36,026 nt of DNA from Planctomycetota bacterium (GTDB lineage: Bacteria > Planctomycetota > Phycisphaerae > Tepidisphaerales > Tepidisphaeraceae), in assembly GCA_039182125.1 (NCBI GenBank), contig JBCDCH010000040.1, forward strand, positions 1 to 36,026. The letters run 5' to 3'. Position 1 is the stretch's first letter; each line of letters opens with the position of its first letter. Position numbers and translations under genes: made by a program. Below are positions 31,042-35,953 of the stretch, piece by piece. Below the pieces are notes generated by a model. That model saw nothing but the letters and a program-made list of their open reading frames with translations, did no database searches and was not told the origin of the DNA.

Positions 31042-31350
31042 ATGACCGAACCCAACCCCACCGCCGAACCGCAAGTCCTCGTCGAAATCTGGGACGCCAC
31101 GGGTAACAAACGCCAGGAAGTACAGATGCCCACCGACGAGCCGCTCGAGCGAATCCTCGCGGTGCTCATCGACCGCATGAAGTTCCCCCGCACCGGCCCT
31201 GACGGGAACCTGCTCAGCTACAAGGTCCACCACCGCCGCACCGGCAAACAGCTCGCCGAGGACGCCACGCTGGCCGACGCCGGCGTGCAAGCCGGCGACG
31301 TGCTACGTCTCATGCCCGAGATCACCGCAGGAGCCGACGCCGATGGCTGA
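31042..31350 (+). CDS. Ubiquitin-like protein (beta-grasp Ubl)
   Basis: The 102-residue product has a single beta-grasp-type domain (about 10-92). It opens with the V-L-V-E-I-W-D strand, then a helix (L-E-R-I-L-A-V-L-I-D-R), and ends L-A-E-D-A-T-L-A-D-A-G-V-Q-A-G-D-V-L-R-L, the ubiquitin-like finish. An 11-residue flexible tail ends in Asp-Gly at the C-terminus, so the last residue is Gly102; another Gly is at 97. A terminal glycine is what an E1 needs for adenylation. It also resembles YukD/EsaB, but no type VII secretion genes are nearby, and its partners are E1, JAB and E2. The stop codon overlaps the E1 start by 8 nt. Similarity is by eye. Confidence 0.8.
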   Translation: MTEPNPTAEPQVLVEIWDATGNKRQEVQMPTDEPLERILAVLIDRMKFPRTGPDGNLLSYKVHHRRTGKQLAEDATLADAGVQAGDVLRLMPEITAGADADG

Positions 31351-32524
31351 ACCCCTGACCATTTCGACGCGGGATCACCGCTTCTCCCGCTTCGAGCTCA
31401 TCGGCTGGTGGGATCAGCAGCGGCTCGCGTCGGCGAGGGTGATCGTCGTCGGGGCCGGGGCGTTGGGTAACGAATTGCTGAAGAACCTCGCCCTGCTCGG
31501 CGTCGGCCAGCGCGGTCACGGCCACGTCACTATCATCGACATGGACGACATCGAGCACAGCAACCTCTCGCGCAGCGTGCTGTACCGGGCCGAGGACGCG
31601 GGACGCAAGAAGGCCGAGGTCGCGGCCGAGCGGGCGGCGGAGATTTATCCGGACATGGACGCCCGCGCCGTCGTCGGGGACGTGAAGCTCGATCTCGGGC
31701 TCGGTGCTTTTCGTGAAGCCGACGTGGTTCTGGGCGGGCTCGACAACCGCGAAGCACGCCTTGCCATCAACCGCGCCTGCTACCGCGTCGGCACGCCGTG
31801 GGTCGACGGCGCGATCCAGGTCGTCGACGGCATCGCCCGCGTCTTCGTCCCACCCGGGGCGTGCTACGAGTGCACGATGAACAAGACCGACTGGCAGGTG
31901 CTTCAGCATCGCCGGTCGTGTGCCGGGCTGTCGCGCAAGGAAATGGAAGGCGGCAAAGTGCCCACCACCCCGACCGTCGGCAGCATCATCGCGGGCGTGC
32001 AAGTACAAGAAGCCGTCAAGCTCCTGCACGGCATCGACACCATCGCCGGCAAGGGCTGGAGCTTCAACGGTGCCGCCACCGACGCCTGGCAGACCGAGTA
32101 CGACCGCAAGGAAGATTGCCTCAGCCACGACCCGCTGCTCGACGTCCGGCCCGTCGGCACCGATTCGACCTTCGGCGGCCTTCTCGAAGAAGCCACCCGG
32201 CTCGGCGCTCCAAACCTGGAACTGCCCAAGACGCTCTTGCGCGGGTTTCGGTCCGAAACCGGCGAGTTCGAGCCGGTCGACGATTTATTGGAACGCGTAT
32301 CGGCCGAACGGCTTTCGGACCCGCGGACCGGCGCTGCGCGACATGTGGTTACATTGGACGCCGTTTCAACCGATACGACCGGCACAGGCCCGAACTTGCT
32401 TGGGTTGCGACCTGCCGACGTTGGCTTTCCGTCGCACGAGATTTTCACCGCACGCACCCCTGCGGGCGCGATCGGGCTTGAACTCTCCGACGACACCGTC
32501 GAGGACGAACTGGAACTGGAATGA
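31343..32524 (+). CDS. E1-like Ubl-activating enzyme (ThiF/MoeB fold)
   Basis: A 393-residue E1-like protein. The adenylation domain shows V-V-G-A-G-A-L-G-N-E (ATP loop), I-D-M-D-D-I-E-H-S-N-L-S-R-S-V-L with Asn74 and Arg77, Lys90 and G-L-D-N (Asp134). A zinc site is formed by C174-x2-C177 and probably C259-x2-H262, where MoeB has a second C-x-x-C. Cys193 in R-S-C-A-G-L-S lies where ThiF, MoeB and UBA4 carry their reactive cysteine, so it is the likely thioester cysteine. V-G-S-I-I-A-G-V-Q-V-Q-E-A-V-K-L-L follows. Residues 263-393 are an acidic C-terminal extension of unknown fold that could recruit the E2. It starts inside the Ubl gene and ends overlapping the JAB gene (ATGA). Confidence 0.9.
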   Translation: MAEPLTISTRDHRFSRFELIGWWDQQRLASARVIVVGAGALGNELLKNLALLGVGQRGHGHVTIIDMDDIEHSNLSRSVLYRAEDAGRKKAEVAAERAAEIYPDMDARAVVGDVKLDLGLGAFREADVVLGGLDNREARLAINRACYRVGTPWVDGAIQVVDGIARVFVPPGACYECTMNKTDWQVLQHRRSCAGLSRKEMEGGKVPTTPTVGSIIAGVQVQEAVKLLHGIDTIAGKGWSFNGAATDAWQTEYDRKEDCLSHDPLLDVRPVGTDSTFGGLLEEATRLGAPNLELPKTLLRGFRSETGEFEPVDDLLERVSAERLSDPRTGAARHVVTLDAVSTDTTGTGPNLLGLRPADVGFPSHEIFTARTPAGAIGLELSDDTVEDELELE

Positions 32525-33324
32525 GCTCTGACACCGAGCATGCCGCACCCGCCACCGACGCGCCCGAGGACGCGCTGCGGCAGGGTAACGCCAACGGCGA
32601 GCCGACCGCAGCTCAGACCGCCGCCCAGGCGGAGAACGTGCTCGACGCGGCGTCGGTCATCAGCACCAGCCTGCCCCGCCGGTTGATCAAACGGGCCGAC
32701 GGCCAACGCAAGCACGGCTTCCAGGTCGTCATCCGGCGTGGTGCCCATGATGCGATGCTCAAGCACGCCAACAGCCGCACCGACGTCGAGGTCTGCGGCG
32801 TCCTTGCCGGCAACCTCTACCGCGACCACTTCGGCCCGTACCTGCTCATTTCCGCCGCCATCCCCGGTCATGCCGCCAGCCAACGCGGCGCGTCCGTCAC
32901 GTTCACCGCCGAGACGTGGACGAGCGTGATGGAGAAGATGGAATCCGACCACGCCGACCGGAAGATGGCCGGCTGGTACCACACCCACCCGGACTTCGGC
33001 GTCTTCCTCTCCGACGCGGACGTGTTTATCCATCGCAACTTCTTCGACCTGCCATGGCAGCCGGCGATCGTCGTCGATCCGGTCCGACAGGAGATCGGCA
33101 ACTTCGTCTGGCGCGGGGGCAACCCCGAACGCGAGCCGTGGATCATCGAGGAGGAGAACGCCACCACCAACTGGCGCAAGATCCAACAGAACGGCGGCAC
33201 CTCCGGCCCGACCGGCAAACTCGGTGGCTTTTTTAGTGCCGTCGTCACGCCGGTCTTGTTCGTCCTGCTCGTGGTCGCCCTGATCGCCGGGCTGTGGTTG
33301 GCCCTGTATTTCCTCGAGTTCTAA
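32521..33324 (+). CDS. Membrane-anchored JAB/JAMM isopeptidase
   Basis: A 267-residue JAB1/MPN metalloprotease. The JAMM zinc motif is complete: Glu90 (E-V-C-G-V-L-A-G) and H-T-H-P-D-F-G-V-F-L-S-D-A-D (His154, His156, Ser164, Asp167). The first 50 residues are Ala/Thr-rich and probably disordered. A single hydrophobic helix at about 242-264 with only a few residues after it makes it a tail-anchored protein with the catalytic domain in the cytoplasm. It should trim or remove the Ubl from targets. Its ATG overlaps the E1 stop codon by 4 nt. Confidence 0.9.
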   Translation: MSSDTEHAAPATDAPEDALRQGNANGEPTAAQTAAQAENVLDAASVISTSLPRRLIKRADGQRKHGFQVVIRRGAHDAMLKHANSRTDVEVCGVLAGNLYRDHFGPYLLISAAIPGHAASQRGASVTFTAETWTSVMEKMESDHADRKMAGWYHTHPDFGVFLSDADVFIHRNFFDLPWQPAIVVDPVRQEIGNFVWRGGNPEREPWIIEEENATTNWRKIQQNGGTSGPTGKLGGFFSAVVTPVLFVLLVVALIAGLWLALYFLEF

Positions 33325-33356: not shown

Positions 33357-34595
33357 ATGTCCGATCCGCTGATCATCACCCGCGACGAGCTACACAGCGA
33401 CAACGTCGAAAAGACGCTCCGCGAGCACAAGCAAATCTCGCAGACCAAGTCGCACTACGAAAACGCCAAGGTCGTCTCGCGCGTCGCCAAGCAACAGCCG
33501 TCGCTTCTGCAACGGGCGGCGGTGTACCTCACGCTCTTCGGACTGCTCGGCGGACTGCTCGGCTGGGGCATCGGCCAGTTCCTGCACCTGCGCCCCGACG
33601 TCCAGGCCCGGGCCAACGCCGCACTCAACGAACGCGCCGCCATTCAATCGCAGATCAGCCAAGGCACGCTCGATCCCGAGGTCGCGGCCTTCCAGCTGTC
33701 CGACCTCGACCGCGTCTACGGCAACAACCCGTTCTATCAAGTCGAGACCGATCCGACGCTCGGAGCCGACGAGCGGACGGCCAAATCGCTGGCGCTGCTC
33801 GATCGCGAGCGGACCAAGGACCGCATCGCCGACGTGCTGCTCTTCGCGATCGCCGGTGCGTTTCTCGGTGCGGCGCTCAGTGCGGCCGAGCCGGCGGTCG
33901 GTCGGAACTGGACGGCCACCCTGCGGTTCGCGGCGGTGGGAGCGACGGTCGGCTTCGTCGGCGGAGCTGCCGCCGGGCTCATCGCGGTGCCGCTGCAAAC
34001 CCTCATCACCGGTGGCGTCGACACCGTGCCGTCGGAGCGGCAACTGATTCTCGCCCGCGCCGCCGTCTGGGGCGTGCTCGGAATGTGCCTCGCGGCCGCG
34101 CCCGGCGTGGCCATGCGTTCGGGCAAGCGGGCCGGCATCGGACTCGTCGCAGGATTGGTCTGTGGGGCCATCGGCGGTGTGCTCTACGGGCCGATCCTTG
34201 AAACCCTCTCCTCCGAGCCGCTCTCACGCCTGGCCGCCCTGCTGCTCATCGGCGGCGGTGCGGGCCTTGCGTCGGCGTGGGTCGAGGACGCGATCAAGGA
34301 CGGCTGGCTCCGCGTCACCGCCGGGCCCATCGCCGGAAAGCAGTTCGTGCTCTACCGCGACCCGACCTACGTCGGCGCGGCCCCGAACAGCCACATTTAC
34401 CTGTTCAACGACAACAAGGTCGGCCGACGCCACGCCGCCGTCCACAAATCCGCCAACGGCTACGAAATCGAAAACCTGCCCCTCGGCGGCCCCACCACCG
34501 TCAACGGCCGGCCCGTCCAACGTGCCAAGCTCCTCCGCGGCGACGTCATCGGCGTCGGCTCGACCAACTTCGAGTTCGGCGAAAAGCCCAAGTGA
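33357..34595 (+). CDS. Multi-pass membrane protein with C-terminal FHA domain
   Basis: The 412-residue product has about six hydrophobic helices (near 54-75, 158-178, 190-216, 231-251, 258-280, 290-310), many Gly-rich, then a cytoplasmic FHA domain at about 318-408. The FHA core is recognisable (Y-V-G-A, N-K-V-G-R-R-H-A-A-V-H, T-V-N-G) but degenerate: the usual G-R is G-A and the phosphothreonine-contacting Ser is Gly (G-R-R-H). ATG 33357 follows the JAB stop codon by 32 bp. It may be the membrane platform of the Ubl system; the family is otherwise unrecognised. Confidence 0.78.
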   Translation: MSDPLIITRDELHSDNVEKTLREHKQISQTKSHYENAKVVSRVAKQQPSLLQRAAVYLTLFGLLGGLLGWGIGQFLHLRPDVQARANAALNERAAIQSQISQGTLDPEVAAFQLSDLDRVYGNNPFYQVETDPTLGADERTAKSLALLDRERTKDRIADVLLFAIAGAFLGAALSAAEPAVGRNWTATLRFAAVGATVGFVGGAAAGLIAVPLQTLITGGVDTVPSERQLILARAAVWGVLGMCLAAAPGVAMRSGKRAGIGLVAGLVCGAIGGVLYGPILETLSSEPLSRLAALLLIGGGAGLASAWVEDAIKDGWLRVTAGPIAGKQFVLYRDPTYVGAAPNSHIYLFNDNKVGRRHAAVHKSANGYEIENLPLGGPTTVNGRPVQRAKLLRGDVIGVGSTNFEFGEKPK

Positions 34596-34616: not shown

Positions 34617-35339
34617 ATGCCCTGTCTCGTTCTCCAAGTCCGCGACCAACTTGAACGCTTCGAGTTGAGCGACGGCGACATCCTCGGTCGCGGCGACGAC
34701 GCGCACGTCCGAATCGTTGACCCCACGATCAGCCGACACCACGCCCGCTTCGAACTGACCGACCCGGCACTGCCCAGCGTCGTCGACTTGAATAGCGCCA
34801 ACGGCATCCGCGTCGATGGTGACCGGGTGTACCCGAAGGACGTGCTGCCCGACGGCGCGCAGGTGCGGTTCGGGGACGTGGCCGGTTGGTTTTTCCAGAA
34901 AGAGCCGCCGTTCAAACTCGACACCGGGCCGATGTGCGCGGTCTGTCAATGGAAGGTCGAGCCGCGTCAGGCGCTGCACCGCTGCAACGACTGCGGCGTG
35001 CTCTACCACCGCGATTGCTGGGTGCAAAACGGCGGTTGCGGCAGCTACGGATGCACGCAGGTCGGCGCGGCCGTCATCGAAGACTCCGGCGACCATGCCG
35101 GCGATGACAGCGGGCTCGAAGTCGCGGTCGCCAAGACGACCACCTCCGCCGACGCGGCCCTGCTCGCCTCCGCCGTCGCCGGCAGCGCTCTCGGCATCCT
35201 CGCGTTCGGCATCCCGGCGGCGATCGTGGCCGCCATCGCCGGCGTGAAGAAATCGATCCCCGCCGCAGCACTCGCCGGTGCCGGCGCGCTCGTCGGTGTG
35301 GGCGTGAGTTGGTGGTGGTGGCTCGCTTCGCCGATTTGA
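34617..35339 (+). CDS. FHA-RING-like zinc-finger membrane protein (E3-ligase-like)
   Basis: The 240-residue product has three parts. An N-terminal canonical FHA domain (about 1-95) has L-G-R-G-D, T-I-S-R-H-H-A-R-F and N-S-A-N-G, all the phosphothreonine-binding residues. A binuclear treble-clef finger at 107-146 has the spacing C-x2-C-x12-C-x2-C-x4-H-x2-C-x6-C-x4-C (C4HC3, like RINGv/PHD and prokaryotic RING families). Two hydrophobic segments (about 182-209 and 214-236) anchor the C-terminus. A FHA plus RING order matches eukaryotic RNF8 and CHFR ligases, presumably by convergence. Beside E1, E2 and Ubl it is the obvious E3 candidate. ATG 34617 is preferred to the GTG 6 bp upstream. Confidence 0.85.
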   Translation: MPCLVLQVRDQLERFELSDGDILGRGDDAHVRIVDPTISRHHARFELTDPALPSVVDLNSANGIRVDGDRVYPKDVLPDGAQVRFGDVAGWFFQKEPPFKLDTGPMCAVCQWKVEPRQALHRCNDCGVLYHRDCWVQNGGCGSYGCTQVGAAVIEDSGDHAGDDSGLEVAVAKTTTSADAALLASAVAGSALGILAFGIPAAIVAAIAGVKKSIPAAALAGAGALVGVGVSWWWWLASPI

Positions 35340-35356
35340 CCCCGAACAATCGAACC

Positions 35357-35953
35357 ATGATCTCCTTCCGCTGCGTCACCTGCGGCCACAAGTTCGATGT
35401 CCCCGACCGCCTCGCCGGCAAGAAGGCGCGTTGCAAGCACTGCAAAACGTCGCTGGTGATCCCGCAGCCGGTAAGCCTGAATCGTCAACTCTCACCACGG
35501 CAACGTCGGCTCCTCGCCGACGAAAAAACGCTACGCGAGACCTTCGCCGACGGACCGATCCGCATCGTCGAAGCGTCAGGTGAACCACCGGAGAAGTACG
35601 TACTGGATTACCTCGTCCGCTCGCTCCGCAAGGAAATCAAGCGTGAGCCCGAGCCGATCAAGGGCCATCGCGTGCAGGTCGTGTTGCCGCCGGACTACCC
35701 CCGGCTCGCGCCGACGGTCTCGATGCTCACGCCGGTGTTTCATCCCAACATCGACACGACGACCGTCTGCGTCGGCGACCACTGGGCTGCGGGCGAACGG
35801 CTCGTCGACCTGCTCATCCGCGTCGGCGAGATGCTCGCGTTCCAAGCGTACAACATTCGCAGCCCCCTCAACGGCGACGCCGCCATGTGGGCCGACCTCA
35901 ACAGCGAACAGTTCCCGATCGACCCGATGGATTTGCGGGCGCTGGTGGATTGA
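35357..35953 (+). CDS. E2-like ubiquitin-conjugating enzyme with N-terminal zinc ribbon
   Basis: A 198-residue protein. Residues 1-35 form a zinc ribbon (Cys6, Cys9, Cys26, Cys29; C-x2-C-x16-C-x2-C). From about 50 a UBC/E2 fold follows: the strands to L-P-P-D-Y-P-R-L-A-P (YP motif), H-P-N (129-131) and Cys138 in V-C-V-G-D-H-W, at the place of the E2 catalytic cysteine, seven residues after the Asn. W143 and the downstream helix (L-V-D-L-L-I-R-V-G-E-M-L) plus R-S-P-L-N also match E2s. This is the last gene of the run, 17 bp after the RING gene and shortly before a long inverted repeat. Confidence 0.9.
   Translation: MISFRCVTCGHKFDVPDRLAGKKARCKHCKTSLVIPQPVSLNRQLSPRQRRLLADEKTLRETFADGPIRIVEASGEPPEKYVLDYLVRSLRKEIKREPEPIKGHRVQVVLPPDYPRLAPTVSMLTPVFHPNIDTTTVCVGDHWAAGERLVDLLIRVGEMLAFQAYNIRSPLNGDAAMWADLNSEQFPIDPMDLRALVD

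Follow-up and report, generated by a model that had tools for sequence, protein, structure and literature searches.

A membrane-anchored FHA and RING-like finger protein in a planctomycete ubiquitin-like operon: a candidate phospho-directed bacterial E3

Our analyses of a 36,026-nucleotide stretch of DNA from a planctomycete of the family Tepidisphaeraceae (the window, which is one complete contig of a draft genome) revealed a 240-residue protein that joins an N-terminal FHA domain to a binuclear zinc finger of the Prok-RING_1 family and a C-terminal membrane anchor, encoded in an operon for a ubiquitin-like protein (Ubl), an E1, an E2 and a JAB peptidase. We propose the following model for its action, and rate its chances of holding as a whole at about even. 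Anchored in the membrane, the protein would serve the E2 of its operon as a RING-like partner, with the finger recruiting or activating the E2 loaded with the YukD-like Ubl. The FHA domain would recruit substrates that bear phosphothreonine, the phosphate having probably been added by a Hanks-type kinase of the genome, and Ubl tagging of these substrates would take place at the membrane. The JAB peptidase, itself bound to the membrane, would trim the Ubl precursor to Gly97, remove the tag, or do both. What the analysis shows are the domains and their conservation, the order of the genes, their co-occurrence and the predicted folds; in the model we infer E2 contact, catalysis and phospho-targeting. 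Its parts differ in strength: a role for the finger beside the E2, as an E3 or an E3-like scaffold, is probable, and the chance that the FHA domain chooses the conjugation substrate lies slightly below even. An E3 is a reasonable reading, with a precedent in predictions for the finger family; a phospho-directed E3 is a plausible one and would be specific to this lineage.

The gene (34617..35339, forward strand) runs uninterrupted from an ATG at 34617 to a TGA at 35337-35339. Over residues 23-86 of the product a Pfam scan matched PF00498 (E 2.5e-13), and the G-R, S-R-H-H and N-G motifs on which the first-pass annotation had based its call of a canonical FHA domain are all intact, with R25, S39, R40, H42 and N62 as the contact residues. 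In an alignment of 10 fused FHA sequences S39 and H42 never vary, and R25 and R40 hardly do. A structural model of the domain (residues 1-97; 34617..34907) lies nearest, at Z scores of about 17, to bacterial FHA domains that bind phosphothreonine (DgcB 17.6, EmbR 17.3, GarA 16.2), and further from the FHA domain of RNF8 (Z 12.4). Both the fold and the G-R, S-x-x-H and N-G residues of a phosphothreonine-recognising FHA domain are thus present, and we consider it likely, from sequence and model, that the fused domain binds phosphothreonine. The genome contains 14 Pkinase-domain matches, and within the six-gene operon there is no kinase gene. At the other end of the protein, the membrane segments noted in the first-pass annotation appear as three modelled helices (residues 177-195, 199-210 and 214-236; together 177-236, 35145..35324). 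Between the FHA domain and the finger, a group of relatives (L039-L050) carries an extra CxC...CxxC stretch resembling a zinc ribbon, which the window protein has lost (34908-34925).

The finger occupies residues 107-146 (34935..35054). In the protein scan Prok-RING_1 (PF14446) matched residues 103-142 with an E-value of 1.2e-6 and 28.8 bits, just short of the 29.1-bit cut-off; in a six-frame search of the genome the score was 32.0 bits, above the curated cut-off, and relatives reach 47.4. The eight ligands (C107, C110, C123, C126, H131, C134, C141 and C146), spaced C-x2-C-x12-C-x2-C-x4-H-x2-C-x6-C-x4-C, are unchanged in all 36 aligned full-length relatives. The fusion of the FHA domain to a binuclear C4HC3 finger is confirmed. 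The same spacing recurs in 88 fingers, a figure that is partly a matter of ascertainment since the loci were found with finger patterns.

What kind of finger is this? The earlier annotation had set C4HC3 apart from the classic C3HC4 RING and left PHD and RINGv types open. By sequence the ambiguity persists: a profile search of solved structures gives PHD fingers scores as good as those of RINGs, and the C4HC3 order fits RING-CH or PHD, with the x4 between the second and third pairs fitting PHD and the terminal x6 and x4 fitting neither. The departure from the classic RING is explained by the prokaryotic RING family, whose members are themselves C4HC3 with a different final spacing (PMC11354881). 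By structure, E3 RING domains come out on top. An AlphaFold2 model of the 50 finger residues alone, built with 55 sequences (pLDDT 88), points tentatively to a RING-type fold, so that the refuting case named in the first-pass annotation, a predicted finger devoid of a cross-brace, did not arise; in VIA-align its best match is RNF165/Ark2C in complex with UbcH5b~Ub (Z 5.7, rmsd 1.6 Å over 43 residues), followed among others by EL5 (Z 5.5), with the PHD finger of Pygo at Z 4.3. The E3 RINGs that head this ranking do so at Z scores that are low in absolute terms, the domain being small, and Foldseek alone gave the model no match below E 0.001, its E-values being 0.05 and above.

The FHA-finger gene is the fifth of six, in the order Ubl-E1-JAB-FHA_TM-finger-E2, all on the forward strand and overlapping or nearly touching. 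Pfam confirmed the E1, E2 and Ubl neighbours named earlier and added the JAB peptidase, which the first-pass annotation did not mention. The Ubl (31042..31350; PF08817, E 5.9e-10) is YukD-like and carries an essentially invariant E-I-T-A-G motif, with Gly97 present in 33 of 33 sequences. After Gly97 comes either the stop codon or an unconserved tail that ranges from absent to long (ADADG here); an invariant glycine followed by a dispensable tail is the signature of a Ubl precursor matured at Gly97. The E1, of the ThiF family (31343..32524; PF00899, E 1.2e-53), has invariant C174, C177 and C193 in 37 sequences; Cys193 stands directly ahead of a P-T-T segment, and from what is known of UBA5 we take it to be the catalytic cysteine. 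The window's E1 is without three C-terminal cysteines (304, 326 and 329) that are conserved in 34-35 of the 37 relatives, which suggests the loss of a second zinc site. The JAB/JAMM peptidase (32521..33324; PF01398, E 1.1e-12) has a C-terminal membrane helix and keeps E90, H154, H156, S164 and D167 in 40-41 of 41 sequences. In the E2 (35357..35953; PF00179, E 1.7e-9), which begins with a CxxC-CxxC region resembling a zinc ribbon, the HPN motif (129-131), the catalytic C138 and W143 are kept in all 43 sequences. FHA_TM (33357..34595; PF00498, E 1.7e-6) is a multi-pass membrane protein with a C-terminal FHA domain. A phospho-recognition role for this second FHA domain was considered and rejected: in none of the aligned operons does it keep the Arg of G-R or the Ser of S-R. 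Membrane helices occur in every protein of the operon except the Ubl, E1 and E2. Taken from its sequences, the operon very probably encodes a working Ubl-conjugation cascade.

How firmly is the finger tied to this cascade? A single-sequence scan of genome contigs gave no relatives, and an alignment-based scan gave 73 finger loci. The six-gene order is shared by genera within the window's family. With an FHA-less finger protein it also turns up in Planctomycetota, Verrucomicrobia, Sumerlaeota, Riflebacteria, KSB1, Kiritimatiellae and others. At 39 of the 73 loci at least two Ubl-pathway genes lie within 8 kb, and a separate FHA_TM is present at 35 of these 39. At 26 loci there are no such neighbours, and we considered these as a disproof of coupling; genome-wide searches for the E2 and Ubl mostly removed the objection. 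Among whole-searched genomes whose finger locus has no Ubl-pathway neighbour, 15 of 19 encode the E2 elsewhere, and the Ubl is found too in all 12 of the E2-bearing Ignavibacteria and Bacteroidetes genomes with an unlinked finger. Across 294 planctomycete genomes, finger and E2 occur together in 22 (against about 4 expected); 8 have the E2 only, 15 the finger only and 249 neither (Fisher p 4e-17, uncorrected for relatedness). The eight E2-only genomes comprise three in which the catalytic Cys is replaced, four with distant E2s and one 84% complete draft (G128); in the first three (G102, G209 and G264) the Cys has become Tyr or His, and the genomes are without Ubl and finger. The finger also occurs in two Clostridia genomes without an operon-type E2, and none of the 73 loci holds a natural finger-E2 fusion. 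The genome evidence couples finger, Ubl and E2.

Other proteins with such fingers came to light in the same survey. In or beside some operons lies a second finger protein with membrane helices, fused to a trypsin-like peptidase domain recognised by Pfam in one case (L086:8662-9957) and by sequence in another (L055:2151-3455). Ignavibacteria and Bacteroidetes loci (L097-L147) encode proteins of about 495 residues whose finger is N-terminal and which have a single membrane segment; these are unlinked to the cascade, in genomes that hold its Ubl and E2. Some planctomycete genomes (G096, G191, G206, G220, G234, G248, G261 [family f36], G284 and G141; loci L154-L183) contain 21-56 Prok-RING_1-like finger matches each, together with one or two E2s and, in most, an adjacent Ubl; one of these fingers is attached to the domain of a GntR regulator. 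Such numbers would amount to an E3-like expansion of paralogues in bacteria.

As for the interface between finger and E2, eukaryotic RINGs, like the archaeal E3 srfp (PMC5654768), rely on an Ile or Val in the first CxxC, a Trp or Leu, a Pro and a linchpin Arg, together with loops 4 and 7 of the E2. One of these four positions is kept in the window's finger: V109, the hydrophobic residue of the first C-x-[IVL]-C, which is I, V or L in 38 of 55 aligned fingers. All 55 have Asn138 in place of the Trp/Leu; where a Pro would be expected stands Ala, Ser or Gly, and the residue at the linchpin Arg/Lys position varies. On the other side, the loop-4 residue that we align with Phe62 of UBE2D is Arg116 in the operon's E2, kept in 42 of 43 sequences, and a shortened loop 7 reads W-x-A, without the Pro of Pro-Ala; UBE2C, the best solved match of this E2, likewise has Ala at the loop-7 position. 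With most canonical contact residues missing on both partners, E2 contact cannot be assumed. The altered residues are strongly conserved on both the finger and the E2, which suggests that the two may meet through a switched interface. The proposal of a phospho-directed bacterial E3 is favored by the operon, the predicted RING-type fold, the FHA contacts and the coupling of finger, Ubl and E2, and is weakened at this surface. Also counting against it are the sequence-level tie with PHD fingers, the weak Foldseek E-values, the fusions of the finger to trypsin-like peptidase and GntR domains, the two Clostridia genomes and the lack of a kinase gene in the operon.

It is conceivable that the finger is instead a PHD- or C1-like protein-interaction module, a scaffold that would hold the E2/Ubl machinery at the membrane but leave transfer unstimulated, so that the choice of targets would fall to the E2. 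The sequence-level tie between PHD and RING, the absence of the canonical E2-activating residues, linchpin included, and the distribution of membrane helices in the operon are all consistent with such a role, but the placing of E3 RINGs above the Pygo PHD finger and the genome-wide co-occurrence of finger and E2 even when unlinked argue against it, and we consider it unlikely. The helices of the JAB, FHA_TM and finger proteins would also suit an Atg8-like arrangement, in which the Ubl is conjugated to a membrane lipid or to the operon's membrane proteins and the finger positions the E2 at the membrane; this we regard as improbable. More improbable still is that the YukD-like Ubl and the FHA proteins belong to a type VII-like secretion apparatus and conjugate nothing. 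The YukD Pfam match, a weak EccD match and a single WXG100 protein elsewhere in the genome (G000:C60:22424-22648) point in that direction; against it stands an operon that also encodes an E1, E2 and JAMM peptidase with complete active sites and a Ubl whose terminal Gly is invariant.

A further alternative concerns the FHA domain, which may bind a fixed partner, such as the adjoining FHA-membrane protein, or only regulate assembly, so that E3 action would not depend on phosphorylation. In most phyla the finger operates with no FHA domain attached, FHA_TM is without the Arg and Ser contacts, and the operon is without a kinase; yet R25, S39, R40 and H42 are kept in nearly all fused FHA domains, whose nearest structures are phosphothreonine binders. 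We give this alternative appreciable weight, short of calling it probable.

Returning to the phospho-directed E3, where might the fusion have come from? The FHA-finger fusion is found at 13 of the 73 loci, all in Phycisphaerae (labelled Phycisphaerae, Phycisphaerales, Humisphaera and Tepidisphaeraceae). Given this confinement, and an FHA_TM without the contact residues, canonical phospho-recognition appears to be a Phycisphaerae addition, and the fusion looks lineage-specific and convergent with RNF8 and CHFR. The match to these human ligases drawn in the first-pass annotation therefore stands as an analogy of architecture: as in RNF8 and CHFR, an N-terminal FHA domain precedes a RING-type finger in one chain and the phosphothreonine residues are kept. 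Unlike them, the window protein has a C4HC3 finger with fixed short spacing and no Trp, Pro or linchpin Arg, is anchored in the membrane, would act with a YukD-like Ubl in place of ubiquitin, and has an FHA domain nearer to bacterial ones. We tentatively suggest a phosphorylation-gated E3 in which a Phycisphaerae Prok-RING_1 ligase captured an FHA domain independently of RNF8 and CHFR and works through a switched interface (E2 aromatic to Arg116, RING Trp to Asn138), some planctomycete families having built an E3-like repertoire of 21-56 fingers around one E2.

The Ubl of Prok-RING_1 operons is reportedly YukD-like, as here. In 2011 Burroughs, Iyer and Aravind predicted the finger family and its operons to be bacterial E3 systems (doi 10.1039/c1mb05061c, as related in PMC4197634 and PMC11354881), and operons of this type are attributed to Actinobacteria, Planctomycetes and Acidobacteria (PMC4197634, citing that study). 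A C4HC3 binuclear finger with E1, E2, Ubl and JAB is common to those operons as they are described there, and with Prok-RING_1 already tied to bacterial Ubl operons a RING-like E3 candidate is not new in kind; the fusion of the finger to a canonical FHA domain sets the present protein apart. The literature searched, which did not include the full text of the 2011 study, contained no bacterial FHA-RING protein. The archaeon Caldiarchaeum subterraneum likewise has a prokaryotic operon with Ubl, E1, E2, RING and JAMM peptidase, and its E3, srfp, is necessary for conjugation and relies on I30, W58, R69 and E2 loop 4 (PMC5654768), of which the window finger keeps the Ile position only (V109). Bil and related bacterial defence systems share the E1, E2, Ubl and JAB logic. 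PADLOC gave weak matches for the operon's E1 and JAB and no match for the finger or the two FHA proteins, and, unlike in Bil-type systems, no defence context was seen around the operon.

If the model is correct, the candidate may mark phosphorylated targets with a protein tag in the manner of human RNF8 and CHFR, an apparent independent invention, and ubiquitin-type tagging directed by phosphorylation would have arisen in bacteria independently of eukaryotes. The altered but conserved surfaces of finger and E2 offer a direct test of RING-type E3 action without the eukaryotic contact residues, and genomes with dozens of fingers would parallel, in bacteria, the eukaryotic E3 repertoire. In planctomycetes, kinase signaling and Ubl tagging would be wired together.
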